In this document: positions 31,538-51,442 of the stretch, one piece after another
How the letters are laid out: every line of letters starts with the position of its first letter
Position numbering within the stretch: position 1 is the stretch's first letter
Source: Celeribacter baekdonensis
GTDB lineage: Bacteria; Pseudomonadota; Alphaproteobacteria; Rhodobacterales; Rhodobacteraceae
NCBI RefSeq assembly: GCF_003047105.1
Contig: NZ_CP028475.1
Location: forward strand, 2,108,001 to 2,172,000
Length of the DNA stretch: 64,000 nt
Direction of reading: 5' to 3'
The notes under the pieces: generated by a model
Told to the model about the DNA's origin: nothing
Database searches by the model: none
What the model saw: the letters and a program-made list of their open reading frames with translations, nothing else
Translations under genes and position numbers: made by a program

Positions 31538-31613
31538 GGTGACGTCCTTTCACGATGGGTGCAGTTATAGGTTGGCTTTGGTATGATACCTTTCTGGAGT
31601 GAAGTCATCAGTT

Positions 31614-31666: not shown

Positions 31667-31696
31667 TGTGATCACTAATTTTATGCTGTGATCACA
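31667..31696. promoter_or_regulatory. Tandem TGTGATCACA sites before sdh (GntR/AkgR-type)
   Basis: TGTGATCACT (31667-31676) and the perfect TGTGATCACA (31687-31696) are 20 bases centre to centre. The same pair precedes sucC and a single copy precedes the gntR gene at 50552. Confidence 0.7.
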
Positions 31697-31777
31697 AAAT
31701 GGGGCAATTCATTTTTCTTAGGGTTTTACTCAGCATAGCAAATCCTCGAATCCGCTTCACGGTGGCAGCAAGGATAG

Positions 31778-31812
31778 AAAAAGGGCCGCGCATCTCCTGC
31801 ACGGCCCTTTTT
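31778..31812. terminator. Terminator after mch
   Basis: AAAAAGGGCCG ... CGGCCCTTTTT stem with a loop of about 13 bases, 30 bases past the mch stop on the minus strand. Confidence 0.8.
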
Positions 31813-31841
31813 GCGATCACAAAATTAAGAATTGCGACACA

Positions 31842-32873
31842 TCACAGCGGCACAACCGCCCAGTAATCCAGATCCAACAAAACATCCGGGTGATATTTGC
31901 CCGCCTCGTCCTTATAGGCAAACTCCGGCGCGCCGTGTTTGTAGGCCACAAGACGCAGGCGCAACGCGCCCACACCCGGCGCAGAGGTTTCCGCCTTATC
32001 AAGCACTTCGGTATAGGCGCGCACGGTATCCCCGGTGAAACACGGATTGGCATGAGCGCCACCATTCAGGCCCACAATCATCTGCGCATTGGCCAGCCCG
32101 TTGAACGACAAGGCCCGCGCCATGGAAATCACATGACCACCATAAATCAAGCGCTTGCCATCTTCGCGATTGGTCGCATCGAAATGCACTTTGGCGGTGT
32201 TCTGCCACAGGCGCGTCGCCAACATGTGCTCGGCTTCTTCAATCGTCACGCCATCGACGTGATCAATCTTTTCGCCAATCTCATAATCGGCAAAGCGATG
32301 CTGCTCCCCCGCCAGCGTGAAATTGTAGCGCAGGAAATCAAGCCCCTCGGGGATTTTCAAATCCTCGGGCGCAACAACTTTCTTCAGCTCCGGGATCACC
32401 GTATCGGGCGCAGGCGCGTCCAGATCACGTTTGCGCACCATCACCCAACGGACATATTCCAACACCGGCTCATCAAATTGATTGAGCCCGGTGGTGCGGA
32501 CATAGACGACACCGGATTTGCCGTTGGAGTTCTGTTTGAGGCCAATCACCTCCGACACAGAGCGTAGCGTGTCGCCGGGATAAACCGGTTTCAACCACCG
32601 CCCCTCGGCGTAGCCAAGGTTGGCGACAGCATTCAGTGAAATATCCGGGACAGATTTACCAAACACGACGTGGAAGGCAATCAGATCATCCAGCGGGCTT
32701 TTGTCCAACCCACAGTTTTCCGCAAATTCATCCGAGGAATAAAGCGCATGACGCGCCGGGTAGAGCGCGTGATACATCGCCCGCTCGCCACCCGAGATTG
32801 TGCGCGGCACAGCGTGCTCGATCACTTGCCCGATCTTATAATCCTCGAAAAAATGTCCCGAATTGGTTTTCAC
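31842..32873 (-). CDS. mch: Mesaconyl-CoA hydratase (MaoC family)
   Basis: Mch hydrates mesaconyl-CoA to beta-methylmalyl-CoA in the ethylmalonyl-CoA pathway. The 343-residue product has two hot-dog MaoC-like halves, with VSEVIGLKQNSNGKSGVVYV in the first and LIYGGHVISMARALSFNGLA in the second. The start is GTG 32873 with GGAGGA seven bases upstream. Three genes upstream in the same run is mcl2, the next pathway step, and ccr and ecm lie 12 kb away. The length and pathway context make this assignment strong, although MaoC proteins alone vary in substrate. Confidence 0.9.
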   Translation of the reverse strand: MKTNSGHFFEDYKIGQVIEHAVPRTISGGERAMYHALYPARHALYSSDEFAENCGLDKSPLDDLIAFHVVFGKSVPDISLNAVANLGYAEGRWLKPVYPGDTLRSVSEVIGLKQNSNGKSGVVYVRTTGLNQFDEPVLEYVRWVMVRKRDLDAPAPDTVIPELKKVVAPEDLKIPEGLDFLRYNFTLAGEQHRFADYEIGEKIDHVDGVTIEEAEHMLATRLWQNTAKVHFDATNREDGKRLIYGGHVISMARALSFNGLANAQMIVGLNGGAHANPCFTGDTVRAYTEVLDKAETSAPGVGALRLRLVAYKHGAPEFAYKDEAGKYHPDVLLDLDYWAVVPL

Positions 32874-32874
32874 C

Positions 32875-33078
32875 CTAAAGTCCTCCCAGTTTCACGTCCG
32901 GGCTATAGTCCCCGTCCGCCTCTTTCGTCACCGCCTGCGCACAGCGCATTTTTCCGGTGCTCTCGTCATAGGCGTAGGAGGGCGATCCGTAGAGCGCCCA
33001 GCCTTTGTTCAATGCCTCTGTCACCTTGTGACAAAAGGCCGATGTGTCGTCCTCGGTCAAAAGGCGATAGGCTTTCAT
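32875..33078 (-). CDS. DUF1737 domain protein
   Basis: This small soluble protein of 67 residues starts MKAYRLLTEDDTSAFCHKV and contains LNKGWALYGSPSYAYDE, the pattern of DUF1737. Its start overlaps the NnrU-like stop (ATGA) and its stop is one base before the mch start, so all four genes of this run are translationally linked. Function is unknown. Confidence 0.8.
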   Translation of the reverse strand: MKAYRLLTEDDTSAFCHKVTEALNKGWALYGSPSYAYDESTGKMRCAQAVTKEADGDYSPDVKLGGL

Positions 33079-33632
33079 GCGACTGTCCCCACAAACGGGT
33101 TGTACCCCAGCGCAATATGGATGCCCGCAATCACGGCAAAGACCACAAGGCTGATGATCACCAAACGGATGTCACCGGCCATGGACCCGCCTGCATAGGG
33201 CACAGGTTTCGGCTCCGCCCGGTTGATCAGCGCCATTTCCACCAAGGCCCAAAGAGTCATGCCGCCAAACAGTACGATGGATGCCGCATCAGCATTGACC
33301 AAAAGATGCGCCACGCCCCAGACCACAACCGAGGTCAACATCGGGTGACGCATTTTGGCACGCAGACGGCTTTTGGAATGGCCCAGCGCCAACAAAAACA
33401 CCGCCACAATCATCAGCGTGTTGTTCACATGGCGCAGATAGGACGGCAGCGCATAAAGATCGACCGTCTCGGAGCTTCGAAAGCCCAGCACCATCAGGAT
33501 CAGCGCGGCAAACAGCGCAATCGCAATAGCCCCCCTGCCCTTGTCGCCAAGCTTGGCGCGTGCATCAGGTGCGAGACGTTTAAAAAGATGGGCGCCGCTC
33601 CACAGCAGCAGCCCGAGAATAAGAAGGGTCAT
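33075..33632 (-). CDS. NnrU-family membrane protein
   Basis: The product of about 185 residues has five or six hydrophobic segments and the NnrU pattern, including YALPSYLRHVNNTLMIVAVF and RHPMLTSVVVWGVAHLLVN. NnrU was named from nitrite-reduction gene clusters in Rhodobacter, but the family is also found elsewhere and resembles isoprenylcysteine methyltransferase-like membrane proteins. No denitrification genes are nearby. GTG 33638 overlaps the mcl2 stop; ATG 33632 is preceded by GGAG at five bases and is preferred. Confidence 0.8.
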   Translation of the reverse strand: MTLLILGLLLWSGAHLFKRLAPDARAKLGDKGRGAIAIALFAALILMVLGFRSSETVDLYALPSYLRHVNNTLMIVAVFLLALGHSKSRLRAKMRHPMLTSVVVWGVAHLLVNADAASIVLFGGMTLWALVEMALINRAEPKPVPYAGGSMAGDIRLVIISLVVFAVIAGIHIALGYNPFVGTVA

Positions 33633-33634
33633 GA

Positions 33635-34489
33635 TCACTCCATTGATTTGATCGCATCGGCTTTGGCGAGGGTCGCCCGTGCCGTTACGATATGGAGATT
33701 CTCCACGATTTTACCATCCACAACCGCAACACCTTCGCCTGCGGCCTCTGCCGCCTCAAAGGCTTCGATCTGACGTTTCGCCAAATCAATCTCGCCATCC
33801 GAGGGTGCAAAGGCGGCATTGGCCACGTCCAATTGCGCCGGATGGATCAAGGTTTTGCCATCAAAGCCCATGTCGCGGCCCTGATCGCATTCAAATTTCA
33901 AACCCTCTTCGTCCTTGAACGCATTGTACACGCCATCAAGGACAACAATCCCATAGGCCTTGGCCGCAATGAGGCACAGATGCAGCCCGCCCATCATCGG
34001 CAAGCGGTCGGCGCGAAAGCGGGTGTTCAATTCTTTGGCCAAATCATTGGTGCCCATCACAAAGCCAGCCATGCGCGGATGCGCGGCAATCTCTGCGGCA
34101 TTCAGCATCCCCAAAGGTGTTTCCATCATCGCCCAAAGCGGCACGTCTGGAATGGCCTGCGCCAAGGCTTCGACCATCGCCGCACTTTCGACTTTCGGCA
34201 ACAGGATGCCGTCGATGTCCATGCCGACGAAAGCCGCCACATCATCACGGCCCCATTGGGTGTCAAAGCCGTTGACCCGGACAATTTTTGCCCGGTTGCC
34301 ATAACCACCTGCCGCCAACGTGGCTTTGAGCAGGGTACGGGCGTTTTCTTTTTCCTCGGGGGCGACCGCGTCTTCGAGATCAAACAAGATCGCGTCACAG
34401 GCCAGGCCTTTGGCCTTTTCCAGCGCCCGTTCTTTCGAGCCAGGGATGTAAAGAGCAGACCGATAAGGGCGATTGGTGACTTGGGACAT
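33635..34489 (-). CDS. mcl2: (3S)-malyl-CoA thioesterase / CoA ester lyase homolog Mcl2
   Basis: The 284-residue product belongs to the CitE/malyl-CoA lyase superfamily: RSALYIPGSKERALEKA at the N-terminus, ILFDLEDAVAPEEKENAR with the metal-binding acidic residues, and METPLGMLNAAEIA. In Rhodobacter sphaeroides the shorter paralog Mcl2 hydrolyses (3S)-malyl-CoA, while Mcl1 (about 318 residues) is the lyase. Length and the run mcl2-nnrU-DUF1737-mch favour Mcl2. GGAGG about ten bases upstream supports ATG 34489. Confidence 0.85.
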   Translation of the reverse strand: MSQVTNRPYRSALYIPGSKERALEKAKGLACDAILFDLEDAVAPEEKENARTLLKATLAAGGYGNRAKIVRVNGFDTQWGRDDVAAFVGMDIDGILLPKVESAAMVEALAQAIPDVPLWAMMETPLGMLNAAEIAAHPRMAGFVMGTNDLAKELNTRFRADRLPMMGGLHLCLIAAKAYGIVVLDGVYNAFKDEEGLKFECDQGRDMGFDGKTLIHPAQLDVANAAFAPSDGEIDLAKRQIEAFEAAEAAGEGVAVVDGKIVENLHIVTARATLAKADAIKSME

Positions 34490-34721
34490 TGATTCTTTTC
34501 CTCCGCAATATTGTTGCGCAAGAGGCCACACAAGCGCACCTTTGTGCAAGGTCAAAATTTCCGCAGTGCAGAAATCTTACCCTCGGAGCCGATCACAAAT
34601 CACCTCTCAGCCCGGCGTCTTAACCATATTTTCAACGCTCTTGCGGCAGGATTTCCGCATGATTTTCTCTTGATGTCCAATCCTCACCATCGGACGCCGC
34701 CAGTAAGAAAAGGATAAGACG

Positions 34722-35033
34722 ATGAAACTGCTCTCTCTTGCCGCTCTGATCGGGGCGTTTGGATGTTTCACCTTTCCCGCCCCGGCCACGGCCCAAAACT
34801 CTTGCGGGCAACGCGATCAAGTGCTTGAGCGGCTCGGCACCCAATATGGCGAAAGCCGCCAATCCATCGGACTTGCGCCGAACAACGGTGTCGTGGAACT
34901 TTTCGCCTCCACCGAGACCGGCACATGGACGCTTTTGATGACTCATCCCAATGGCGTGAGTTGCCTCATTGCCTCAGGTCAGGCGTTTGAAACAACCGCC
35001 GAGGTGGCGCAGGCCAAAGGCGACGACGCGTAA
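34722..35033 (+). CDS. Small exported protein, unknown function
   Basis: The 103-residue product has a clear Sec signal peptide (MKLLSLAALIGAFGCF, cleavage after ATAQ-type residues near 25) and a mature part of about 78 residues with two Cys, beginning NSCGQRDQVLERLGTQYGE. AAAAGGATAAG precedes the ATG. It looks like the periplasmic hypothetical proteins common in Rhodobacteraceae. No domain is recognised. Confidence 0.7.
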   Translation: MKLLSLAALIGAFGCFTFPAPATAQNSCGQRDQVLERLGTQYGESRQSIGLAPNNGVVELFASTETGTWTLLMTHPNGVSCLIASGQAFETTAEVAQAKGDDA

Positions 35034-35038
35034 ACGCG

Positions 35039-35791
35039 TTACCCCAAAGCCTCCCAAATCAATTTCAGTCCGGTGACCACCAAGAACACATAGGCCAGAG
35101 CGAAGAAGAAGCGATCCGATATTTTATGGTGCAGCCACGCCCCCATCAACACGCCGAGAATGGCAAAGGGAAAGAGCATCAGATCGGCCTTGAGCGTCTC
35201 GGGTGTGAAAATCCCAACGACGGAATAGGGCACCACTTTGATCAGGTTGATCGCCCAAAACACCAACACCGAGGTCGCTTGATAGGTGGTTTTGTCCATT
35301 CGTTGTGACAACATGTAAACGGCCGCGGGCGGGCCACCGGCATGGGATATGAAACTGGTGAACCCCGTCACAGCCCCCCAGACCGTGCCGCCAAACGGAC
35401 CAATGGCGCGCTTTGGCGGCTTAATCCACCCTTTCGCCTTTGCCCCCTGATAGGCGACAAAGCCCACAGCCACGAGACCGATCAAAAATTTGAACACCTC
35501 AGGCTTGGCGATGCCATAAACCAAGGCCCCAATCACGATCCCCGGCACAGCACCGATGATCAGCCTGCGCGCCACGCCCCCATCCCATTTGCGCCAAAAC
35601 ACCCGGATCGCGGTCACATCCATCACCATCAACAGCGGCAACATCAGGCCAACCGCCTGTCCTGGCGTGAGAATCAGCGCCAAAAACGGGGTCGCTGCAA
35701 AGGCCGCCGCTGACCCAAATCCGCCCTTTGACAGACCTGCAAAAATCACCGCAGGCACGGCAAAAAGAAAGAAATGAAGATCAAACGTCAT
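35039..35791 (-). CDS. TauE/SafE-family (TSUP) membrane exporter
   Basis: The 250-residue membrane protein has about eight hydrophobic segments and the TSUP repeat motifs AGLSKGGFGSAAAF near residue 20 and TGFTSFISHAGGPPAAVYML near residue 140. TSUP proteins export or import sulfur-containing or organic anions. It is unrelated in position to the other TSUP gene at 13.2 kb and lacks a TIGR02186 partner. It is convergent with the small exported protein and divergent from mdh. Confidence 0.85.
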   Translation of the reverse strand: MTFDLHFFLFAVPAVIFAGLSKGGFGSAAAFAATPFLALILTPGQAVGLMLPLLMVMDVTAIRVFWRKWDGGVARRLIIGAVPGIVIGALVYGIAKPEVFKFLIGLVAVGFVAYQGAKAKGWIKPPKRAIGPFGGTVWGAVTGFTSFISHAGGPPAAVYMLSQRMDKTTYQATSVLVFWAINLIKVVPYSVVGIFTPETLKADLMLFPFAILGVLMGAWLHHKISDRFFFALAYVFLVVTGLKLIWEALG

Positions 35792-35840
35792 GCGACAGGT
35801 CCAGACGGTAAAAGGGTATTTTTCTCGAAATTACAGAGTG

Positions 35841-35860
35841 GTTATCGCTAACGCTAGCGA
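35841..35860. promoter_or_regulatory. LacI/CceR-type operator before mdh
   Basis: GTTATCGCTAAC (35841-35852) is a near-perfect central-CG palindrome. It overlaps TCGCTAACGCTAGCGA (35845-35860), a second palindrome with one mismatched pair. The CGCTAAC half is shared with the sdh and suc promoters. The LacI-family CceR regulates TCA genes in Rhodobacter sphaeroides. Confidence 0.5.
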
Positions 35861-35897
35861 AAACCTTAATGCATTGCCGCAGCGCAGCCTTGCGTGA

Positions 35898-36917
<1,020 letters not shown>

Positions 36918-36940
36918 TCCTTTGAGAGCTTGTTAAATTG

Positions 36941-36973
36941 ACCCCGCGCCTCCCCCGAGGCGCGGGGTTTTTT
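36941..36973 (+). terminator. Terminator of mdh
   Basis: ACCCCGCGCCTC / GAGGCGCGGGGT stem with a CCCC loop, followed by TTTTTT. Confidence 0.92.
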
Positions 36974-36990
36974 GTTGGAGTTTCAAACCG

Positions 36991-37980
36991 ATGACACATG
37001 GTGAACCGTCTTGGGCGATTGCCGCGCTGGCCGATGAGCCCGCGCCGCTGATTGCGGCCTTTGCCCGTCACCATCTGGCCATCGGCGCGCGTGAGGTCCA
37101 TATTTTTCTAGACCGCCCCAACCCCGAAGCCGAGGCCCTGCTCCATGGGCTTGAGGGCTGTATCCTCGCAACCTGCGACCAGACCTATTGGGATAAAGTC
37201 AACAACGGCCGTCGCCCAGAGCGCCATACAGGGCGGCAAAAATTCAACGCGACCCGCGTGTATCAAACCACCAAATGCGATTGGCTATTGCATTGCGATG
37301 TCGATGAATTCATCGCGGACGGCGCTGCGTTGTCGAGCCTATTGAACCGAAAGGAAAGTGCGCATGGCCTCGTCTTGCGCAACCGCGAACGGGTCCATCT
37401 TGAGACGGAGCCGGGAGAGACCATCTTTGAGGGCGCGTTTCGCGACCCAATCGGACTGACAGAGAGCGACGCCAAAGCCCTATATGGCCGGTTTGCCAAA
37501 TTCCTCGACTTTGGGCTAACGGGCCACCGAACCGGCAAGACCATCGTCCCCACCGGGCGCGATTGGACCATGGGTGTGCATTACCCCATTGGCGCGGATA
37601 TGGCCAAGATGATCAAATCAGAGACCCGGCTGCTGTTGCATTTTGATGGTCTGACAGAGCTGCATTACGCGTTGAAATTGCTTAAAAAAGCCTTCGAGGA
37701 CTATTCCGGCCCCAAACGCCAGATCGGGCAGGAACGTGAGGCGCAATACCGCTATATCCGCAACAAAGCCGACAACCCCAAAGAGCTCTTTCGACTGGTG
37801 CACGGGGTTCAAAGCCTGAACGAGCGGCAAGCCACAACTCTGGGCGTGCTGGGCGTCCTGCATGACACAGCTTTCATGCCGCAAAACTGCGCCGATCTGG
37901 ACCTGACGACCACAACATTCAATGCCATGCTGCGCGCACGCGAAGCGGCCCTGATCGCCAAAGCCGGATTAGAGCTTTGA
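36991..37980 (+). CDS. Glycosyltransferase family 2-like protein (DUF-type with DxD)
   Basis: The 329-residue product resembles Glyco_tranf_2_4 proteins: N-terminal ALADEPAPLIAAFARHHLA, then HIFLDRPN, and WLLHCDVDEF, whose acidic residues stand where GT-A enzymes bind the metal/nucleotide sugar. It has no membrane helix. A paralog lies at 38837 on the other strand. It starts soon after the mdh terminator, with TTGGAG as ribosome site. Such genes often decorate capsule or LPS; the sugar and acceptor are unknown. Confidence 0.82.
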   Translation: MTHGEPSWAIAALADEPAPLIAAFARHHLAIGAREVHIFLDRPNPEAEALLHGLEGCILATCDQTYWDKVNNGRRPERHTGRQKFNATRVYQTTKCDWLLHCDVDEFIADGAALSSLLNRKESAHGLVLRNRERVHLETEPGETIFEGAFRDPIGLTESDAKALYGRFAKFLDFGLTGHRTGKTIVPTGRDWTMGVHYPIGADMAKMIKSETRLLLHFDGLTELHYALKLLKKAFEDYSGPKRQIGQEREAQYRYIRNKADNPKELFRLVHGVQSLNERQATTLGVLGVLHDTAFMPQNCADLDLTTTTFNAMLRAREAALIAKAGLEL

Positions 37981-37990
37981 GCGAAAGGAA

Positions 37991-38016
37991 AAGCCGGACC
38001 CTTTCGGACCCGGCTT
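37991..38016 (-). terminator. Terminator of the outer-membrane protein gene
   Basis: On the minus strand, AAGCCGG / CCGGCTT with a partly paired middle is followed by TTTTCC. It is shared with the convergent glycosyltransferase end. Confidence 0.7.
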
Positions 38017-38038
38017 GAGACATTGATCTGAGGATCAC

Positions 38039-38701: not shown

Positions 38702-38836
38702 CATCGTTCCAATTCGTTTCGAAAGTGAGTCTCTTATCCCCTTCATACACGATCTTTGGCATATATCGCGACTCCAAGCTGTGCGAATGCGCGCAAGCGT
38801 CGCGCCCAAACCACACGGAACCTGCGCAATCAGGCG

Positions 38837-39868
38837 TCAAAGCGGACCACCGAATGCCTCATCTGCCCAATCACGCAAGCCAACGTGCTCGAAAAATGCC
38901 GCATGATCCGTGCGCAATTGTGCATCAAAGCTGGCAGGGCAAAGGTCCAACCCGTCGCAACCACGGGGGACAAAAGGCGTCTCCTCCAAACACCCCAAAC
39001 TCCGGTATAAATCGGCCTGCGCCGGGGTGAAATCTTTCAGCGCCCGCGTCAGCGCAAAAATCTCGGCGGGCTCAGCGGCCTTTTCGCGAAAGGCCCTCAC
39101 GGCGGCCATACGTTTATGGCCCTTGCGCGGGCGCGGGCCGTTTGGCGTCTCATAAGCGCGTTTGAGCATTTTCAGGATAAAATGCAGCCGGGTCAGCCCG
39201 TCAAAATGCAAGATCCTCGCAGAGCTAGGTCTGCGCATAGCGGGCTCCCCGGTTGCGCGATCCAAGGCATGATGGACCCCGATCTCAAAATCATGCCCGA
39301 CAGGCGAGAGGGTTTTGCCCATCGAATGGCCCATCATCCCCTTATTCAAATAGCGCGCGGCGGGACCGAACAACGAGGCCGCCAAATCGTCGAACAGCCA
39401 CATCGGTGTACGAAATCCACCCTCAAAAATTGACAGCCCCGGATCAACGGGCAACCAAACGCGCTCGCTATTGGACAAATGAAGCGTCTGGTGTGGGGCC
39501 TCGATCGTCGTCGCCAAGTCAGCAATCAGGGCCTCGGGCTGAACAACAAATTCGTCTGCATCGCAATGCAAAAGCCAATCGCAATCGGTCTGACCATAGG
39601 CTTGAGTGGCATTGTATTTCTGCCGGGCCAAATGATGTGGCGGGCGCTTTTTAAAACGGCTCTTGGCCCAATACGTCGCATCACATTGTGTTAAAACGCA
39701 CCCCCGGATGCCTGCCACCAAAGGCCCAACCTCAGGGATCACTCGATCCAGGAAAACGTGCACTTCGCAGGCGCCAAGCGCCAAATGATGTCGCACGAAA
39801 GCGGCAATCAATACGGCGGGTTCATCCACGGTGGCGACCACTGCCCATGTTGGTAAGGCTTTTTTCAT
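38837..39868 (-). CDS. Glycosyltransferase family 2-like protein, paralog of the 37.0 kb gene
   Basis: The product of about 343 residues shares the blocks [38 protein letters not shown] and [12 protein letters not shown] with the protein encoded at 36991, so the two arose by duplication and inversion or transposition of one copy. ATG 39868 is preferred over a frame start at 39889. There is no membrane segment. Substrate unknown. Confidence 0.8.
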
Positions 39869-40007
39869 CAACGACTTTCTGTAAAGCACACTGTGGTTCG
39901 TTTCGTCCGCACAGCCCCAATCGCAATATCAGCGTGCGATTTTATCCGCAAACACAGGTCTGCGTCGATTCTTTTCCCCACCCTGCATCACCGCGCGCAA
40001 TGCAATT

Positions 40008-40038
40008 TGTGATCACACGAATTATTGCTGTGATCACA
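40008..40038. promoter_or_regulatory. Tandem TGTGATCACA sites before sucC (GntR/AkgR-type)
   Basis: Two perfect TGTGATCACA palindromes (40008-40017, 40029-40038), 21 bases apart, in the same context (TGCA-TTTGTGATCAC, then GCTGTGATCACAAA) as before sdhC. Confidence 0.75.
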
Positions 40039-40058
40039 AATTTCAAAAACATCGGCCA

Positions 40059-40070
40059 TTTACCGCTAAC
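40059..40070. promoter_or_regulatory. CGCTAAC element of suc
   Basis: TTTACCGCTAAC, a LacI/CceR-type half palindrome whose last base is 77 bases before the sucC ATG. Spacing and half site match sdh. Confidence 0.45.
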
Positions 40071-40146
40071 GGTCGAAAAATCCTTTCGTTTGCGCCGGGC
40101 GGTGTGTCATGTCAGGGCCAATCGAACCAGGGAGAGGATATCTCTA

Positions 40147-41340
40147 ATGAACATCCACGAGTATCAGGCCAAACGCCTTCTCAAGGAATACGGCGCGCCG
40201 GTTTCCGACGGTCGTGTCGTTTTGAATGCGGCCGACGCAAAAACCGCTGCAGGCGAACTTGACGGGCCGCTTTGGGTTGTCAAAGCGCAGATCCACGCAG
40301 GTGGTCGCGGCAAAGGCTCCTTTAAAGAAGCTGGCGCTGGCGAAAAAGGCGGCGTGCGTCTTGCGAAATCCGTCGAGGAAGCCGCGAAAGAAGCCAATGC
40401 AATGCTCGGCCACACTCTGGTCACGCACCAGACTGGTCCGGCTGGCAAACAAGTCAACCGCATCTACATCGAAGATGGCTCCGACATCGCCCGCGAACTC
40501 TACCTCGCGCTGCTCGTGGATCGTCAGTCGTCCCGCGTGTCCATCGTCTGCTCCACCGAGGGCGGCATGGACATCGAAGAGGTGGCTGAAAACACCCCTG
40601 ACAAAATCCTGTCCTTCTCTGTTGATCCCGCGACCGGCCTTCAGGGCTTCCACGGTCGTCGCGTCGCTTTTGCTCTGGGCCTTGAAGGCAAACAGATCAA
40701 ACAGTGTTCGCAGCTGATCCAGAACCTGTACCGCCTCTTCGTCGAAAAAGACATGGAGATGCTGGAAATCAACCCGCTGATCGTGACCCCGGCTGGCGAC
40801 ATCAAATGTCTCGACTGTAAAGCTGGTTTCGACGGCAACGCTTTGTACCGCCATGCCGACATCGTTGGCCTGCGCGACGAAACCGAAGAAGACCCGAAAG
40901 AACTGGCCGCTTCCCAGCACGACCTGAACTACATCGCACTTGACGGTGAAATCGGCTGCATGGTGAACGGTGCTGGTCTGGCGATGGCCACGATGGACAT
41001 CATCAAACTCTACGGCGCAGAGCCTGCCAACTTCCTCGACGTAGGCGGCGGCGCGACCAAAGAGAAAGTGACCGAAGCGTTCAAAATCATCACCTCTGAC
41101 CCGAACGTCAAAGGCATCCTCGTGAACATCTTCGGCGGCATCATGCGCTGTGATGTGATCGCGGAGGGCGTGATTGCCGCCGTGAAAGAAGTCGGACTTC
41201 AGGTTCCGCTTGTTGTCCGCTTAGAGGGCACCAACGTGGAACTCGGCAAAGAGATCATCAAAAACTCTGGCTTGAACGTGATTGCCGCCGACAACCTCAA
41301 AGACGGCGCGCAGAAAATCGTTAAAGCGGTGAAAGGCTAA
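40147..41340 (+). CDS. sucC: Succinyl-CoA synthetase beta subunit SucC
   Basis: SucC forms succinyl-CoA synthetase with SucD, linking succinyl-CoA to substrate-level phosphorylation. The 397-residue product has the ATP-grasp N-terminus [35 protein letters not shown] and the C-terminal ligase motif [13 protein letters not shown]. The frame continues far upstream, but the family start is ATG 40147 after GGGAGAGGA. It is the first gene of the suc operon and overlaps nothing. Confidence 0.96.
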
Positions 41341-41345
41341 GACCC

Positions 41346-42233
41346 ATGGCAATTCTTGTAAACGAAAACACCAAGGTCATCTGTCAGGGCTTCACTGGCT
41401 CGCAGGGCACCTTCCACTCTGAACAAGCCATCGCATATGGCACCAAAATGGTCGGCGGCGTGACCCCTGGCAAAGGTGGCTCCAGCCACCTCAACCTGCC
41501 GGTGTTCAACTCGGTTCACGAAGCGAAAGCTGTGACCGAAGCCAATGCCACCGTGATCTACGTGCCGCCGCCCTTCGCCGCGGATTCCATCCTTGAGGCG
41601 ATCGACGCCGAAATGGAATTGATCATCTGCATCACCGAGGGCATTCCTGTGCTCGACATGATGAAAGTGAAACGTGCACTCGTCGACAGCACCTCGCGCC
41701 TGATCGGCCCGAACTGCCCCGGCGTGATCACGCCTGATGCGTGCAAAATCGGCATTATGCCGGGTCACATTCACCGTCGCGGCTCCGTCGGCGTGGTGTC
41801 CCGCTCCGGCACGCTGACTTACGAAGCTGTGAAACAGACCACCGACCTCGGTTTGGGTCAGTCCACGGCTGTGGGCATCGGCGGCGACCCGATCAAAGGC
41901 ACGGAGCACCTCGATATCCTCGACATGTTCCTTGATGATCCGGAAACCACCTCCATCATCATGATCGGTGAAATCGGCGGCTCCGCAGAAGAAGAAGCGG
42001 CCGAATTCCTCGCCGAGCAAAAGAAAAAAGGCCGCTGGAAACCCACCGCAGGCTTTATCGCAGGCCGCACAGCCCCTCCGGGCCGCCGCATGGGTCACGC
42101 TGGTGCCATCGTGGCAGGCGGCAAAGGCGATGCAGAGTCCAAAATCGAAGCGATGAAATCCGCAGGTATCGTGGTCGCTGACAGCCCCGCCACCCTTGGC
42201 GAAGCTGTGATGGAAGCGATCAACAAAGGCTAA
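41346..42233 (+). CDS. sucD: Succinyl-CoA synthetase alpha subunit SucD
   Basis: SucD carries the phosphohistidine of succinyl-CoA synthetase, seen in the conserved [10 protein letters not shown] segment near residue 245. It also has the CoA-binding Rossmann region ([15 protein letters not shown]) and [20 protein letters not shown]. At 295 residues it has normal length. It starts five bases after sucC. Hairpins follow before sucA. Confidence 0.96.
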
Positions 42234-42260
42234 GCGCCACGGCGATCAGCCTTTAAAACC

Positions 42261-42310
42261 AGCCTGCGCCCGGTGATCACGTCGGACGCAGGCTTTGCCG
42301 CAAAAGCGGC
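42261..42310 (+). terminator. Hairpin pair between sucD and sucA
   Basis: AGCCTGCGCCCG / CGGACGCAGGCT (one mismatch, loop holding GTGATCAC) is followed by a short GCCGC AAAA GCGGC stem. Without a long T tract it may partly terminate or protect the sucCD message rather than end the operon. Confidence 0.5.
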
Positions 42311-42343
42311 CCCCATTTAGAGCCCCTCAGAAGGTCCGCAAAG

Positions 42344-45304
42344 ATGAACGACCAGAGCCCGAACGACATCCTCCACGCCTCTTCCTTTATGCAGGGGCAT
42401 AACGCGGAGTACCTTGAACAGGTCTACGCGAAATACACCCAAGACCCCTCCTCTGTGGACGCCTCCTGGGGTGAGTTTTTCAACTCTCTGGGCGATGCCG
42501 CATCGGATGTCACCGCCGAGGCTGCGGGGCCGTCCTGGGCGCGCGCCGATTGGCCGCCTGTGCCGCATGACGATCTGACCCAAGCGTTGGATGGACAATG
42601 GGCCGAACCGATTGCTGCCGCGAAAAAGATCAAAGAGAAAGCCGTCGAAAAAGGCGTTGAGATCTCTGAGGATCAAATCAAACGCGCTGTGCTCGACTCG
42701 ATCCGCGCGATCATGATCATCCGCGCCTACCGCATCCGGGGCCATTTGGCCGCCGATCTCGATCCGCTGAAAATGCGCGAAGAGACCCAGCACCCGGAAC
42801 TTGACCCGCGCTCCTACGGCTTCACCGACGCCGACATGGATCGTCCGATTTTCATCGACAATGTTTTGGGGCTGCAACATGCCTCGATGCGTCAGATCAT
42901 GGACATCGTCAAACGCACCTATTGCGGCACGTTCGCGCTGCAATACATGCATATTTCCGATCCCGAACAGGCCGGTTGGCTGAAAGAGCGGATCGAAGGC
43001 TACGGCAAGGAAATCCAGTTCACCCGCGAAGGCCGCAAAGCCATTCTCAACAAATTGGTTGAGGCTGAGGGCTTTGAAAAATTCCTTCATGTCAAATACA
43101 TGGGCACCAAACGCTTTGGTTTGGATGGCGGCGAAAGCCTCATCCCAGCGATGGAGCAGATCATCAAACGCGGCGGCAACCTTGGCGTCAAAGAGATCGT
43201 CATCGGCATGCCGCACCGCGGTCGCCTGTCGGTCTTGGCCAACGTGATGTCCAAACCCTACCGCGCAATTTTCAACGAATTCCAAGGTGGCTCATTCAAA
43301 CCCGAAGACGTGGATGGCTCGGGCGATGTGAAATATCACCTCGGGGCCTCCTCGGATCGTGAATTCGATGGCAACAAGGTCCACTTGTCTCTGACCGCGA
43401 ACCCCTCGCACCTTGAAGCGGTGAACCCGGTCGTTCTGGGCAAGGCCCGCGCCAAAACCGATCAGTATAACGACAAAGACCGCACCTCGGTGATCCCGAT
43501 CCTGCTGCACGGCGATGCCGCTTTTGCCGGCCAAGGCGTTGTGGCGGAATGTTTTGGTCTCTCCGGTCTGCGCGGTCACCGCACCGGCGGCACGATCCAC
43601 ATCGTGGTGAACAACCAAATCGGGTTCACCACCGCACCGCATTTCTCGCGCTCCTCGCCCTACCCGACCGACAACGCGCTGGTCGTTGAGGCACCGATTT
43701 TCCACGTCAACGGCGATGACCCGGAGGCCGTGGTGCACGCCGCGAAAGTCGCCACCGAGTTCCGTCAGAAGTTCCACAAAGACGTGGTTCTCGACATCTT
43801 TTGTTATCGCCGCTTTGGTCACAACGAAGGCGACGAGCCGATGTTCACCAACCCGCAGATGTACACCAGCATCAAGCGGCACAAGACCACGTTGCAACTC
43901 TACACCGAACGTCTGGTCAAGGATGGTCTTATCCCGGAAGGTGAGATCGAGGACATGAAAGCCGCGTTCCAAGCGCAGCTCAATGACGAGTTCGAAGCGG
44001 GCAAGACCTTTAAGCCGAACAAAGCCGATTGGCTTGACGGGCGGTGGTCGCATATCAACCGTGAGGGCGAAGAGTATCAGCGCGGTCAAACCGCGATTTC
44101 ACAAGACACGATGGCCCAAATTGGCCGGTCGCTGACCTCGCATCCCATTGATTTCAACATCCATAAAACCGTGGCCCGTCAACTCGAAGCCAAGGCACAG
44201 ATGTTTGAGACCGGCAAAGGGTTTGATTGGGCGACAGGTGAAGCGATTGCCTTTGGCTCTCTGTTGGCAGAAGGCTATCCGGTGCGTCTGGCCGGTCAGG
44301 ACAGCACACGCGGCACTTTCTCACAGCGTCATTCGGCTCTGATTGATCAAAAATCCGAGGATCGCTACTACCCTCTGAACCACATCCGCGAAGGTCAGGC
44401 CCATTACGAGGTCATCGACTCGATGCTCTCCGAATATGCGGTTTTGGGCTTTGAATACGGCTACTCTTTGGCCGAACCCAATGCTCTGACGCTTTGGGAA
44501 GCGCAGTTTGGCGATTTCGCCAACGGTGCGCAAATCATGTTCGACCAATTCATCTCCTCGGGTGAAAGCAAATGGTTGCGCATGTCCGGCCTCGTGATGC
44601 TCTTGCCACACGGCTATGAGGGCCAAGGCCCGGAACACTCTTCCGCCCGCCTTGAACGATTCTTGCAAATGTGTGGTCAGGACAACTGGATCGTCGCCAA
44701 CTGTACGACGCCTGCGAACTACTTCCACATCCTGCGCCGCCAGTTGCATCGCTCCTATCGCAAGCCGCTGGTGCTGATGACGCCGAAATCCTTGTTGCGT
44801 CACAAATTGGCGACCTCTGTGGCCGCTGATTTCATCGAAGGCTCCTCCTTCCACCGCGTTCTGTGGGATGATGCCGATGCCACCTACGGCACCGCGAAAT
44901 CGGAGCTGACGCTAAAAGCCGACAAAGACATCAAACGCGTCGTGATCTGTTCGGGCAAGGTCTACTACGACCTGCTTGAGGCGCGCGATACGGCCGGTAA
45001 AGACGACACTTACATCCTGCGTCTGGAACAATTCTACCCGTTCCCAGCGCTGTCGATGGTCAAGGAACTTGAGCGCTTTAAAGACGCTGAAGTCGTCTGG
45101 TGTCAGGAAGAACCGAAAAACCAAGGCGGCTGGACCTTTGTTGAGCCCAATATCGAATGGGTCCTCACCCGGATCAATGCCACACACACGCGCCCGGTCT
45201 ATGCTGGTCGTGCCGCCTCCGCGTCGCCAGCCACTGGTCTCGCATCTCAACACAAAGCACAACAATCGGCGCTCGTGAATGATGCGCTCAACATCGAAGG
45301 ATAA
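42344..45304 (+). CDS. sucA: 2-oxoglutarate dehydrogenase E1 component SucA
   Basis: SucA decarboxylates 2-oxoglutarate with thiamine diphosphate and passes the succinyl group to the lipoyl domains of SucB. The 986-residue product has the E1o N-terminal motif ([17 protein letters not shown]), active-site [15 protein letters not shown], ThDP/Mg region [18 protein letters not shown] and C-terminal [10 protein letters not shown]. An insertion or deletion is not seen. sucB follows after four bases, so E1 and E2 are made together. Confidence 0.96.
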
Positions 45305-45308
45305 TCAC

Positions 45309-46799
45309 ATGTCCGTTGAAATCCGCGTCCCCACCCTTGGCGAAAGCGTCACTGAGGCCACCGTCGCAACTTGGTTCAAACAGCCGGGCGACACTGTTGC
45401 CGTTGACGAAATGCTCTGCGAATTGGAAACCGACAAAGTGACCGTCGAAGTTCCTTCCCCGGCCGCTGGCACCTTGGGCGACATCATTGCCAAAGAGGGC
45501 GACACCGTGGGTGTGGACGCGCTCTTGGCCACGCTGAACGCAGGCGACGGTGCCGCCGCGGCCCCCGCACCGAAAGCCGAAGCCGCTCCCGCAGCCGCTC
45601 CGGCCGCGTCTGGGTCTTCTGTCGATGTGATGGTCCCGACCCTTGGCGAATCCGTCACCGAGGCCACCGTGGCCACATGGTTCAAAGCCGTGGGTGACAC
45701 TGTGGCTCAGGACGAAATGCTCTGCGAGTTGGAAACCGACAAGGTCTCCGTCGAAGTGCCGTCCCCTGCCGCAGGTGTGTTGACTGAAATCGTTGCCGTC
45801 GAAGGCACCACCGTGGACGCCTCCGCCAAACTCGCCGTGATCTCGTCGGGTGCGGGTGCCTCTGCGGCTGCTCCGGCCGCCGCTGCTGCTCCTGCCGCTG
45901 CGTCCACAGGCAAAGACGTTGAAAACGCGCCTTCCGCCACCAAAATGATGGCCGAACACGGCGTGGATGCCGCCTCTGTGACCGGCACTGGCAAAGATGG
46001 CCGCATCATGAAAGACGACGTGCTCAAAGCCATGGCCGCGCCGAAAACTGCGCCGGCTCCCGCTGCCGCTCCGCGTGCACCGTCCGCGCCCTCTGATGCC
46101 GCCCGCGAAGAGCGCGTGAAAATGACCAAGCTGCGCCAAACCATCGCGCGCCGCCTCAAAGAGTCGCAAAACACCGCAGCGATGCTCACCACCTATAACG
46201 AGGTCGACATGACCGAGGTGATGGCGCTTCGGAACCAATACAAAGACGAGTTTGAGAAAAAGCACGGCGTGCGTTTGGGCTTTATGTCCTTCTTCACCAA
46301 AGCCTGCGTGCATGCGCTCAAAGAAGTGCCGGAAGTGAACGCCGAAATTGACGGCACCGATGTGGTTTACAAAAACTACGTCAACATGGGCGTCGCGGCG
46401 GGCACCCCGCAGGGCCTCGTGGTCCCGGTCATTCGCGATGCCGATGCGATGTCTTTTGCCGAGATCGAAAAAGCGATCTCCGAGAAAGGCCGTCGTGCCC
46501 GTGATGGCAAACTCTCCATGGCGGAAATGCAGGGCGGCACCTTCACCATCTCCAACGGTGGTGTCTATGGCTCCCTGATGTCCTCCCCGATCCTGAACCC
46601 GCCGCAATCCGGCATCCTCGGCATGCACAAAATCCAAGACCGCCCGATGGCGATCAACGGCCAAGTTGTGATCCGCCCGATGATGTATCTGGCCCTGTCT
46701 TATGACCACCGCATCGTCGACGGCAAAGGCGCTGTGACCTTCCTCGTGCGCGTCAAAGAAGCGCTGGAAGACCCGCGTCGTCTGTTGATGGATCTGTAA
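45309..46799 (+). CDS. sucB: 2-oxoglutarate dehydrogenase E2 component SucB with two lipoyl domains
   Basis: SucB transfers succinyl groups from lipoyl-lysine to CoA. The 496-residue product has two tandem lipoyl domains (residues about 2-77 and 104-180, each with the lipoyl Lys in ELETDKV), an Ala/Pro-rich linker, a peripheral subunit-binding domain (about 210-250, with [14 protein letters not shown]) and the catalytic domain ending [13 protein letters not shown]. Most SucB proteins have one lipoyl domain. The two copies here are almost identical in sequence, pointing to internal duplication. ATG 45309 is the family start. Confidence 0.94.
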
Positions 46800-46808
46800 A
46801 CACGTGGT

Positions 46809-46837
46809 TGTGGGGCCACTTTAGCCCCACACCTTTT
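46809..46837 (+). terminator. Terminator after sucB
   Basis: Perfect 8-base stem TGTGGGGC / GCCCCACA with a 7-base loop, then CCTTTT. Confidence 0.7.
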
Positions 46838-46857
46838 CAACTGTCTGGGACAAATCC

Positions 46858-47205
46858 ATGGCGCGACGTTCGAAAGAAGAGGTACTCGACGAGTTTCACA
46901 AGCTCTACGATTGCCTCGATGCTTTTCTGTCTTGCCATGATACCCTTCTATCAAAGGCAAATGCTCAATTTCGGCGGAAGCACGTCGTGACACGCGAGCA
47001 AATGTTGAACTGGTTCGAGAACGGCACTCATTCCCCATCGCAGATTGTCTCTGGTGTTCTGTCAGGCTTGTCGGACTGCAAAGAGACAGTTGCCGACCTC
47101 GCAAAATATGATCCTGACCAAGAGAAGCGTTTTCGTGACGCGTACCTACGCAGACGTGGAAAAAGTTTCGAAGACGACATTGCGTTGGCACGATATTCAA
47201 AATGA
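46858..47205 (+). CDS. Hypothetical soluble protein (115 aa)
   Basis: The product is charged and helical, starting MARRSKEEVLDEFHKLYDCL, with three Cys and a C-terminal basic stretch (RRRGKSFEDD). It has no signal peptide or membrane helix. Its stop overlaps the MAPEG gene start (ATGA), so the pair is translationally coupled. It is inserted between the sucB terminator and lpd, and its codon use is less GC-biased than that of the suc genes. I do not recognise the family. Confidence 0.6.
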   Translation: MARRSKEEVLDEFHKLYDCLDAFLSCHDTLLSKANAQFRRKHVVTREQMLNWFENGTHSPSQIVSGVLSGLSDCKETVADLAKYDPDQEKRFRDAYLRRRGKSFEDDIALARYSK

Positions 47206-47597
47206 CCCCCCTCCTCACCCTCCTCGCCCTCGCAGGCCTCTTGCACATCGCGCAATTCGTGGTGGCCTCTTATATGGCGAATGTCGATCTGGGGCCGGGC
47301 TATACCACCTCGCCCCGCGACCGCGCACCAAGGCGCGAGATGCGCAAGACCACGGCGCGGATGCTGCGGGCCTATGACAACCATGTCCAAATGTTCCCGT
47401 TTTTCGCCGCCGCCGTGCTCTTGATCCATGTCACCGATCAATCGAACCTGGTGACCGTCATCGCCGCTTGGGCCTATCTCGCGGCCCGCGCGCTCTACAT
47501 TCCCGCCTATGCCCTCGGATGGGTGCCGTGGCGGTCCTATATCTGGATGGTGGCGATGCTCTCCATCGCCGTCCTTTTCATTGCCGCTCTGATCTGA
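47202..47597 (+). CDS. MAPEG-family membrane protein
   Basis: The 131-residue protein has four hydrophobic segments and MAPEG features: [20 protein letters not shown] as the conserved basic loop, [16 protein letters not shown] and [16 protein letters not shown] proteins include glutathione S-transferases and related membrane enzymes; many bacterial ones have no known role. It lies 37 bases before lpd and overlaps the preceding hypothetical gene. Confidence 0.85.
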
Positions 47598-47634
47598 GCG
47601 GCCCCGCATAGAGTTCAAGACCAAGGAGAAGACC

Positions 47635-49029
47635 ATGGCTTCCTACGACGTAATCATCATCGGTGCTGGCCCCGGCGGCTATGTCTCCGCCATCCGCTGT
47701 GCCCAACTGGGCCTGAAAACCGCCGTGGTCGAAGGCCGCGGCACCTTGGGCGGGACCTGCCTCAATGTCGGCTGTATCCCCTCGAAAGCACTGCTGAACG
47801 CCACCCACCATCTGCATGAGGCGGAGCATAATTTCGCCAAGATGGGCCTCAAAGGCAAATCCCCATCGGTCGATTGGGATCAGATGAAATCCTACAAAGA
47901 TGATGTGGTCGGTCAGAACACTGGCGGCATCGAATTCTTGTTCAAAAAGAACAAGATCGACTGGATCAAAGGCTGGGCCACCCTCCCCGCCGTTGGCAAA
48001 GTCAAAGTCGGCGACGAGGTCCATGAGGCGAAAAACATCGTGATCGCCACGGGATCTGTGCCCACCTCTCTGCCGGGCGTTGAGGTCAACAATGACGGCG
48101 GCGTCGTGGTCGACAGCACGGGCGCGCTAGACTTGCCGAAAGTGCCGAAAAAACTCGCCGTCATCGGCGCGGGTGTCATCGGTCTGGAACTTGGCTCGGT
48201 CTACGCCCGCCTTGGCTCCGAAGTGACCGTGGTCGAATACATGGATTTCATCACCCCGGGCATGGACGCAGACGTTCAACGCACGTTTAAAAAGCTGCTT
48301 GAGAAACAAGGGCTGAACTTCATCCTTGGCGCGGCTGTGCAGGGTGTGGACGCCTCGAAAACCAAAGCCAAGCTGACCTACAAACTCAAAAAAGACGACT
48401 CTGAGCACACGCTTGACGCCGATGTCGTTTTGGTCGCCACGGGCCGCAAACCTTTCACGGATGGTCTTGGACTTACTGAGTTGGGCGTCGAATTCACCCC
48501 GCGTGGTCAGGTCAAAACCGACGCCCATTGGGCCACCAACGTCAAAGGCATCTACGCCATCGGTGACGCGATTGTCGGTCCGATGTTGGCGCATAAAGCC
48601 GAGGACGAAGGCATGGCCGTGGCAGAGGTGCTTGCGGGCAAACATGGCCACGTCAACTACGCCGTGATCCCCGGTGTGATCTACACGTCGCCCGAGGTCG
48701 CCACCGTCGGCCAAACCGAAGCGCAGTTGAAAGAAGAAGGCCGCAAGGTCAAAATCGGCAAATTCTCGTTCATGGGCAACGCCCGCGCCAAGGCCGTGTT
48801 CCAAGGCGACGGCTTCGTCAAACTTATCGCGGATGCAGAGACCGACCGTTTGCTTGGCGCCGCGATCATCGGCCCGGCAGCGGGCGACATGATCCACGAG
48901 ATCTGTGTGGCAATGGAATACGGCGGCTCGGCCCAAGACATTGCACTGACCTGCCACGCCCACCCGACCTATTCGGAAGCCGTGCGTGAGGCGGCATTGG
49001 CCTGCGGCGACGGTCCGATCCACGCCTAA
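47635..49029 (+). CDS. lpd: Dihydrolipoyl dehydrogenase (E3)
   Basis: Lpd reoxidises dihydrolipoyl groups of SucB with FAD and NAD. The 464-residue product has the N-terminal FAD motif [14 protein letters not shown], the redox disulfide [16 protein letters not shown], the NAD motif [15 protein letters not shown], and the C-terminal active His/Glu region ([15 protein letters not shown]). AAGGAGA precedes the ATG. Position after sucAB assigns it to the 2-oxoglutarate dehydrogenase complex, though it may serve others as well. Confidence 0.96.
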
Positions 49030-49074
49030 AGCGTGACGCCTTTAACCTGAGACAGGGGAAAGGCATCACACTTT
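49028..49074. repeat. REP-like palindrome after the lpd stop
   Basis: AAAGCGTGACGCCTTT (49028-49043) and AAAGGCATCACACTTT (49059-49074) pair with two mismatches around a 15-base loop. It starts at CTAAAGCG exactly at the stop codon, as at 24238. Confidence 0.55.
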
Positions 49075-49095
49075 AAACGGTCCTAAAATCAAAGG

Positions 49096-49121
49096 AAAAG
49101 GCGCCTTTAAGGGCGCCTTTT
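49096..49121. terminator. Bidirectional terminator between lpd and the thioesterase gene
   Basis: AAAAGGCGCC / GGCGCCTTTT perfect 10-base stem with loop TTTAAG, between convergent genes. Confidence 0.9.
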
Positions 49122-49122
49122 C

Positions 49123-49608
49123 TCATTTCTTATCTTCGCCCGTGGCGGCAATATTGGCCATCCGCGCGGCATGTTCGCGGCGCAACACTTTGCGCAATTC
49201 GGCAGAATTCCAACGCTTTTGATCCATCTCCGTCTCCGGCACAAACTGTGGCACAGGAGCGGATTTGCCATCGTCATCCACCGCCACCATGGTGAAGTAG
49301 CAGGAATTGGTGTGGCGCACGGTTTGGGTGCGAATATCTTCGGCCTCGACCCGGATACCGATCTCCATCGAGGTGCGGCCCACGTAATTCACCGTCGCCC
49401 GAAAATGCACCAATTCGCCCACGGCGATCGGTTCTTTGAACGTCACCTGATCGACGGACAACGTCACCGCATATTTGCCTGAATAGCGCGAGGCACAGGA
49501 AAATGCGACCAAATCCAAAAGCTTAAGCAAAGCACCACCGTGCACCTTGCCAGAAAAATTCGCCATATCCGGCGTCATCAGTTCGGTCATTTCCAGATAA
49601 CGTGCCAT
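49123..49608 (-). CDS. Acyl-CoA thioesterase (hot-dog, YciA-like)
   Basis: The product of about 161 residues has a single hot-dog domain with MTPDMANFSGKVHGGALLKL near residue 12 (the catalytic region of YciA-type thioesterases) and YVGRTSMEIGIRVEAED. It hydrolyses acyl-CoAs in the cytoplasm. AAGGGG before ATG 49608 supports this start; the longer frame to 49782 has no family sequence. It is convergent with lpd and follows the gntR gene by 290 AT-rich bases with no gene. Confidence 0.85.
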   Translation of the reverse strand: MARYLEMTELMTPDMANFSGKVHGGALLKLLDLVAFSCASRYSGKYAVTLSVDQVTFKEPIAVGELVHFRATVNYVGRTSMEIGIRVEAEDIRTQTVRHTNSCYFTMVAVDDDGKSAPVPQFVPETEMDQKRWNSAELRKVLRREHAARMANIAATGEDKK

Positions 49609-49898
49609 GCCAGCCCCTTTCAAAACTCTGCGCTTCAGAAGACGCTGCACAGCAGAAAAGGTCAAGTATTGGCGGCACTGCAGGAAGAGATCATTCATCA
49701 AAATGATCCCTTCCTGCCCGACCCAACATCGGGGGGATGATTTCGGGCCGGTTTCTGTAGGCCGCAGATCTGAGCACCGCAAAGATCAGACACGCCTCTT
49801 TCAGGAACGCAGCAGCCCACGATTTCCGACGAATTTTTATAAAATTTTTTATTTTCTCGTGGACTGAACAGAAACCGAAACCTGGGCAAAAGCCCGCC

Positions 49899-50552
49899 TC
49901 AGACGGCCAACATCCGTAGCCCTTGCGTCACATCGGAGCGCACGGCAAGCCGCAATCCCGGTTCATCCCCCGCCCGCAAAGCGGCCACAATCAACCGATG
50001 GTTTTGTGGCACTTCGGTGCGATTAAGGCGGGCGTACAGGGCACGCATTGTCGGACCAAGTTGCAGCCAAACCGTTTCTGTCAGCGCCAGCATCGCCGGT
50101 GCCTGGGCGCGCAAATACAGCGTGCGATGAAATTCCAGATTGGTGCGAATATAGCCAACGTCATCATGTTTCGCGACCATTTCCGCGATCGAGCCGTTGA
50201 TGGTTTGAAGCCGTTCGATCAGGGCCATATGTGCCCGCGGCAAAGCCCGAGAGGCCAGTTCTGGTTCGATCAAAGCCCGGATCGAGGCCAATTCTTCGAT
50301 CCGCTCATTGCTCAGCTCCGGCGTGCTCAACCGGCCCGAGGAACTGAGGTTCAGCCCGCCATCGGCCACCAACCGCCGCACCGCTTCGCGCGCGGGCGTC
50401 ATCGACACATCAAACATTTTGCCAATCCCGCGCAGGGTCAGCGCCTCACCGGGACGAAATTCGCCATGCATGATGCGCGTGCGCAAAGTGCGATACACGC
50501 GATCATGGGCAGCACCGAGCGTATCAGAGGGGCGTGGGATGGGTGTGATCAT
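49899..50552 (-). CDS. GntR-family (FCD) transcription regulator, probable AkgR-type TCA regulator
   Basis: The 217-residue product has an N-terminal winged-helix GntR domain (YRTLRTRIMHGEFRPGEALT, then VSMTPAREAVRRL) and a C-terminal FCD ligand domain with the metal-site pattern (R.IEPELA, EFHRTLY, NHRLIVAA). A perfect TGTGATCACA lies 9 bases upstream of ATG 50552, and the same site occurs in pairs before sdhC and sucC. AkgR of Rhodobacter sphaeroides is a GntR regulator that activates TCA genes, so I infer this is its counterpart. Orthology is not proven by sequence alone. Confidence 0.8.
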   Translation of the reverse strand: MITPIPRPSDTLGAAHDRVYRTLRTRIMHGEFRPGEALTLRGIGKMFDVSMTPAREAVRRLVADGGLNLSSSGRLSTPELSNERIEELASIRALIEPELASRALPRAHMALIERLQTINGSIAEMVAKHDDVGYIRTNLEFHRTLYLRAQAPAMLALTETVWLQLGPTMRALYARLNRTEVPQNHRLIVAALRAGDEPGLRLAVRSDVTQGLRMLAV

Positions 50553-50560
50553 GGGTGCAA

Positions 50561-50570
50561 TGTGATCACA
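50561..50570. promoter_or_regulatory. TGTGATCACA site before gntR, probable autoregulation
   Basis: Perfect 10-base palindrome ending nine bases before the regulator's ATG, so bound protein would block initiation or the ribosome site. It is identical to the sites at sdh and suc. Confidence 0.7.
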
Positions 50571-51279: not shown

Positions 51280-51442
51280 GACGTCTCTTTTCTCCGCTTG
51301 GGCCAAAGAGTCCGTGCTCTTTGCCCCCCGTCTGTCCCAGTGTTTACTTTAGATTAGGGCGAAAGGCTTTGACACCCCCGTCGCGATATGGCATGGCGCG
51401 TCAATCTCCGCACCTGGACCAGTTATGACGAAAGGGATTATC

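Follow-up and report, generated by a model that had tools for sequence, protein, structure and literature searches.

The 64,000-nucleotide stretch of Celeribacter baekdonensis analysed here (contig NZ_CP028475.1, positions 2,108,001 to 2,172,000; hereafter the window) carries the sdh and suc genes of the tricarboxylic acid (TCA) cycle together with a gene for a GntR/FCD regulator, and one 10-mer palindrome, TGTGATCACA, recurs before sdhC, before sucC and before the regulator gene. Which protein recognizes this palindrome, and what does it do at each of the three places? A sequence-only reading of the window had proposed that the regulator is of the AkgR type, that it binds both operons and that it shuts itself off. 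Our analysis supports the assignment of the GntR/FCD gene as an AkgR ortholog. We consider it very probable that AkgR dimers bind TGTGATCACA, and that the paired sites serve activation of sdhCDAB and sucCDAB(-lpd), and plausible that the lone site lowers akgR expression.

Paired sites before sdhC and sucC

The predicted AkgR operator pair of sdhC (31667..31696, minus strand) consists of a perfect distal copy at 31687-31696 and a proximal copy at 31667-31676 (TGTGATCACT) with one mismatch, 20 bp apart from start to start. Because sdhC lies on the minus strand, the mismatched copy is the one closer to the promoter. The predicted pair of sucC (40008..40038, plus strand) contains two perfect copies that start at 40008 and 40029, 21 bp apart, and a lone perfect copy at 50561-50570 ends 8 nt upstream of the ATG of the GntR/FCD gene. 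A re-scan of the window thus returned all five positions and both spacings of the sequence-only reading, as well as the single mismatch that it had placed in the first sdhC copy. Its further remark that the flanks of the two pairs match holds for the letters of the plus strand and fails for orientation, which is not the same relative to sdhC and to sucC. The re-scan also returned three one-mismatch copies absent from that reading, at 9233, 31812 and 55511. The second of these (TGCGATCACA, 31812..31821, with no strand assigned) is flanked by the mch-like gene and the sdhC pair and is of doubtful function. Additional copies at varied distances occur in 7 of 59 sdhC upstream regions, either 56-57 nt past the pair as a third copy (G031, G038 and G043) or at other distances (G000, G055, G005 and G052).

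The window holds eight matches to the palindrome with at most one mismatch, and 100 shuffles gave a mean of 2.00 and a maximum of 6, none reaching eight. Base composition predicts 0.04 perfect copies and four are present (Poisson P ~1e-7); these four belong to only nine perfect 10-mers in the entire genome (binomial P ~5e-6 for their placement within 64 kb). When pairs with a spacing of 19-23 bp and no more than four mismatches in total were sought in the window, the sdhC and sucC pairs alone were recovered. Genome-wide searches at spacings of 20 and 21 bp with up to three mismatches returned the sdhC pair alone at 20 bp, and the sucC pair plus one place inside an open reading frame (ORF) at 21 bp. 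A chance origin of the sites is ruled out by the shuffles and by the conservation of the sites in relatives.

This conservation follows the regulator gene. In a survey of 248 genomes of the family, one per genus, a perfect pair with a spacing of 19-22 bp (9-12 bp between the palindromes) was present in 152 genomes, and a reversed-pattern control yielded none. The perfect pair occurred in 150 of the 222 genomes with a strong akgR ortholog, in two of the five with an intermediate match and in none of the 21 without akgR (Fisher ~4e-10, a value that overstates independence because genomes of one family share ancestry). The akgR classes were set by eye on the best protein match, with E values of 1e-37 to 1e-58 for the intermediate class and values worse than 1e-32, or no match, for the class without akgR, in which five genomes are less than 90% complete. 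Among the pair matches listed, all 30 loci place the pair 96-191 nt before sucC (28 loci) or sdhC (2 loci).

A site-blind test gave the promoters themselves the same scrutiny. From a draw of 61 genomes we took 59 sdhC upstream regions (G019 and G021 had no sdhC match) and 59 sucC upstream regions (G021 offered only a distant paralog and G037 only a contig-end fragment), and a pair was allowed up to four mismatches. A pair preceded sucC in all 49 relatives with akgR, in 2 of 3 intermediate genomes and in none of 7 without akgR; the corresponding counts before sdhC were 46 of 50, 0 of 2 and 0 of 7. No shuffled upstream region out of 2360 reached an equal score. The pairs are thus conserved at orthologous promoters where akgR is present and missing from all seven genomes without it. 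The earlier proposal that one regulator binds both operons is strongly supported, as predicted binding, by this co-occurrence together with the targets and motif given in the available portions of the literature cited below.

Identity of the regulator

The regulator gene (49899..50552, minus strand) encodes a 217-residue protein with a GntR winged-helix domain and an FCD domain (PF00392 and PF07729, both over cut-off). Translation likely starts at the ATG at 50552 in preference to the longer ORF start at 50654. The most informative comparison is with G051, a genome of seven contigs that we identified from its sequence as Cereibacter sphaeroides 2.4.1 or a near strain. One 4001-bp piece of G051 is 100% identical to C. 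sphaeroides plasmid records, several of which are named 2.4.1; a piece of another contig returned no match. The malyl-CoA lyase of G051 matches a fragment of PDB 4l9y at 100% over 108 residues, and we take 4l9y to be an R. sphaeroides protein. The suc-mdh-mch-sdh region of G051 (L226) contains operator pairs before sucC (8461, one mismatch, and 8482) and before sdhC (13265 and 13286, both perfect), as well as a GntR gene that lies beyond sdhB and is preceded by a YgjP-like gene.

The GntR protein of the window is 76.6% identical to this G051 protein. In a tree of 45 rows, the two proteins and the other orthologs of the family form one 100/100 clade, which excludes six FCD paralogs from the genome of the window and 14 other-class rows; one row (L017) repeats the window's own gene, and the tree has long branches with unsettled bootstrap values. 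The genome holds 15 FCD-domain matches, and six of the 14 besides akgR gave alignments long enough to enter the tree. These six are at most 36% identical to the window protein, and outside the family the best protein among the matches listed is at most 40% identical. The AkgR-type assignment of the sequence-only reading is supported by these values and by the phylogeny that it had suggested. With both domains present, orthology supported and sites of the published motif before sdh and suc, the gene can be regarded as an AkgR ortholog on sequence grounds.

How does the window compare with systems already described? The GntR gene of G051 can be read as RSP_0981, an assignment compatible with the published numbering and with ORF order; we take RSP_0981 and AkgR to be one gene. 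The available portion of PMC4344238 numbers sdh of R. sphaeroides as RSP_0974-6 and presents RSP_0981 as a GntR regulator with predicted control of sucCD, sdh and the 2-oxoglutarate dehydrogenase genes, and that of PMC6365646 lists GTGATCAC among the sites of the transcriptional activator AkgR. The window shares with C. sphaeroides the orthologous regulator and the YgjP-like gene before it, the sdh and suc targets, the core motif GTGATCAC as far as these portions report it, and the pairs at sdhC and sucC, which are spaced by 21 bp in L226. The two loci differ in the position of akgR, which lies beyond lpd in the window and beyond sdhB in L226, and in the own-gene site, which is perfect in the window and has no counterpart with at most one mismatch in L226. 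PS417_07240, the regulator of the deoxyribonate cluster in Pseudomonas simiae, is described in the same portion of PMC6365646 as an AkgR relative whose target cluster is preceded by a GTGATCAC palindrome; it differs in being only 32% identical to AkgR, in serving another pathway and in using one palindrome, not a pair. The best-scoring solved structure by sequence is that of McbR (YncC) from Escherichia coli (PDB 4p9f), which aligns over residues 20-212 with a score of only 75 bits. The McbR regulon differs from that of AkgR.

Proposed action at the paired and lone sites

A spacing of exactly 21 bp is found in 46 of 49 sucC pairs and 41 of 46 sdhC pairs of akgR-bearing relatives, and the 20-bp sdhC pair of the window is among the few exceptions. 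Among the 21-bp pairs, those at sucC are close to perfect (6 distal and 10 proximal mismatches in 48 regions) and those at sdhC are looser (29 distal and 27 proximal mismatches in 41 regions). The spacers have an AT-rich centre and mostly G or C at their ends. Distances to promoter elements were collected from the first 30 sdhC and the first 30 sucC regions, minus those with no pair. The -35-like signal peaks 72-74 nt from the pair centre at sdhC (16.8 of 27 weighted) and at 62 nt, one turn closer, at sucC (9.0 of 30 weighted). At sdhC, GTGAC occurs in 26 regions, and in 21 of these its distance from the pair centre is 71.5-74.5 nt; the other five distances are 50.5, 63.5, 64.5, 94 and 228.5 nt, the first four of which are off by ~1-2 turns. 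The window's own -35-like element of the putative sdhC promoter, GATGAC at 31604..31609 on the minus strand, aligns with the GTGAC of relatives and lies ~73 nt from the pair centre. These distances suggest a fixed rotational register between the pair and the -35-like element. A TGTTAGCG-like sequence near sdhC of the window, considered as a candidate CceR site, is not conserved in the alignment of relatives.

We propose that an AkgR dimer binds each TGTGATCACA palindrome. At sdhC and sucC, two dimers would occupy the same face of the helix, spaced by two turns, ~7 turns (sdhC) or ~6 turns (sucC) upstream of the -35-like element. The pair centre would lie near -108 at sdhC and near -97 at sucC if the -35-like element is the true -35. 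From this upstream position, the paired dimers would activate sdhCDAB and sucCDAB(-lpd). The mBio 2015 paper on AkgR is said to have shown direct activation. If the palindromes, two turns apart around an AT-rich spacer core, keep a constant register with the -35, DNA bending or looping may bring the dimers to RNA polymerase. A bolder proposition is that the pair is a rigid two-dimer upstream module with the -35 in constant register at ~6 or ~7 turns, and that pair and regulator were gained and lost together within one family; we give this proposition an even chance. Transcription of sucAB may proceed from the sucC promoter and might read through into lpd; a scan of the window found no copy with at most one mismatch between sucC and lpd, including the gap between sucD and sucA.

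The single predicted AkgR site before the regulator gene (50561..50570, minus strand) covers the probable ribosome-binding region and is a candidate autorepression site, through which AkgR would reduce its own expression. Of 80 ortholog loci, 69 have a site with at most one mismatch before akgR, and in 62 of them this site is perfect; the rate in shuffles is 0.3%. The 80 loci are the best of 557 confirmed and a few species recur among them, and close relatives are therefore over-represented. In two Leisingera loci (L066 and L081), two sites 44 nt apart stand before akgR in place of one.

Might the lone site instead serve positive autoregulation, or belong to a ygjP-akgR transcription unit? The gene for a YgjP-like metallopeptidase (50584..51306, minus strand, PF01863) ends 31 nt before akgR and shares its strand, and a YgjP match holds this place directly before akgR in 72 of the 80 ortholog loci and in L226, so that the promoter may lie upstream of ygjP. 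Moreover, in some relatives the protein match begins 50-85 nt downstream of the site; the distance from the site to the ATG is shorter, as the matches often begin after the first residues. However, the site of the window, 8 nt before the ATG, is downstream of any promoter that it could activate, and its position where the ribosome-binding site should be favours repression. We regard positive autoregulation or a shared transcription unit as improbable, but as the most serious of the alternatives, and negative autoregulation via the lone site as plausible.

A second alternative is that the pairs mediate repression of sdh and suc by AkgR. Many FCD regulators repress, and akgR's own site is placed where repression is expected. 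However, the conserved -35-like elements of the putative promoters are not covered by the pairs, which are positioned well upstream of them, and AkgR is called a transcriptional activator in the portion of PMC6365646 available to us. We regard repression through the pairs as very unlikely. Least likely of all is that the sites serve mainly another GntR/FCD paralog and that the akgR site merely reflects a DNA preference shared by the subfamily, as the 15 FCD-domain matches of the genome and the palindrome of the distant Pseudomonas regulator might suggest, since the pairs track the akgR clade across genera, the six alignable paralogs are divergent and fall outside that clade, and the regulator's own gene has the site in most ortholog loci.

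Several observations weigh against our proposal that AkgR acts through these sites. Four of the 50 akgR-bearing genomes have no good sdhC pair (G007, G012, G030 and G040; the G030 region is truncated at a contig end), and 72 of the 222 akgR-bearing genomes of the family survey have no perfect pair anywhere. Conversely, a perfect sucC pair is present in G019 and G033, where akgR is matched only weakly or in part; the sdhC pair is missing from G033. No site with at most one mismatch precedes akgR in 11 of the 80 ortholog loci or in L226 of C. sphaeroides; therefore, autorepression would be a variable feature of the system. At sucC, the -35 peak covers under a third of the weighted genomes, and the putative promoter elements and start sites are placed by conservation alone. 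Finally, the 12-mer TTGTGATCACAA with up to two mismatches has 213 forward matches in the home genome (G000), against 37 for the reversed control, an excess that perhaps reflects a general excess of GATC-centred words.

Gene context, wider occurrence and significance

The target genes were assigned with NCBIfam models above cut-off, with the exception of sdhD. On the minus strand lie sdhC (31148..31537, succinate dehydrogenase cytochrome b556 subunit, TIGR02970), sdhD (30766-31137, assigned by position and a tblastn match to L226 only, with no NCBIfam match), sdhA (28946-30754, TIGR01816) and sdhB (27437-28216, NF004616). The suc cluster (40147..49029, plus strand) comprises sucC (40147-41340), sucD (41346-42233), sucA (42344-45304), sucB (45309-46799) and lpd (47635-49029), for which the models are, as listed, NF001913, NF004230, NF006914, NF004309 and TIGR01350; mdh also has a model above cut-off. 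A sulfotransferase-like ORF (PF17784, 28305-28928, minus strand) sits between sdhA and sdhB, inside the sdh operon, and L226 has a ~620-nt gap with small ORFs at its place. Around the TCA cluster are crotonyl-CoA carboxylase/reductase-, acyl-CoA mutase-, mesaconyl-CoA hydratase- and CitE-type lyase-like genes (18704-20068, 20380-22371, 31842-32873 and 33635-34492, respectively), which presumably belong to the ethylmalonyl-CoA pathway. The last two have counterparts between mdh and sdhC in L226. Two Glyco_tranf_2_4 ORFs (36991-37980, plus strand, and 38837-39889, minus strand) lie between mdh and sucC, where mdh of L226 is ~230 nt from sucC.

Does the regulon reach beyond the window? Five perfect copies of the palindrome lie elsewhere in the genome. 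Three are inside long ORFs (L001, L004 and L005), L002 is 8 nt past the end of a 354-residue ORF and inside a shorter one, and L003 is ~100 nt ahead of a possible start, within a short ORF frame. By reading of the translations, none of the five adjoins a TCA gene; L005 is ~540 nt upstream of a malic enzyme-like ORF. The 12-mer TTGTGATCACAA with at most one mismatch occurs in 15 places, of which six are sites of the window and one is L001. Seven of the other eight are inside ORFs and one (L230) is between genes. What we claim for the home genome is a small group of strong sites and not the full extent of a regulon.

Beyond the family, perfect pairs are rare. Among 142 genomes of the class, 140 of them from outside the family, a perfect pair was found in the two family members and in G261, which belongs to another family. 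The 22-bp pair of G261 (L248, 1501-1532), the sole perfect pair in the 140 non-family genomes, is by reading not at TCA genes and neighbours a TonB receptor-like ORF. About 2.5 kb from the pair is the gene for a GntR protein with 32% identity to AkgR, which is perhaps a relative that shares its DNA preference and serves another target.

Our literature search returned no match that combines TGTGATCACA with GntR. The operator pair goes unmentioned in the available text of PMC4344238, PMC6365646, PMC11323563, PMC5507952, PMC4419725 and PMC7471390, a set that does not include the original AkgR paper. As far as the available portions of PMC4344238 and PMC6365646 extend, control of sdh, suc and the 2-oxoglutarate dehydrogenase genes by AkgR is already in print. 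We regard the system as a well-conserved known regulon in a new genome, to which the paired, possibly helically phased operator is a useful addition. It provides the TCA regulator of a large bacterial family with a sequence-level operator of two TGTGATCACA palindromes 21 bp apart. Genera that have neither the regulator nor the sites could serve as natural controls, and the possible phasing makes the activation mechanism directly testable.

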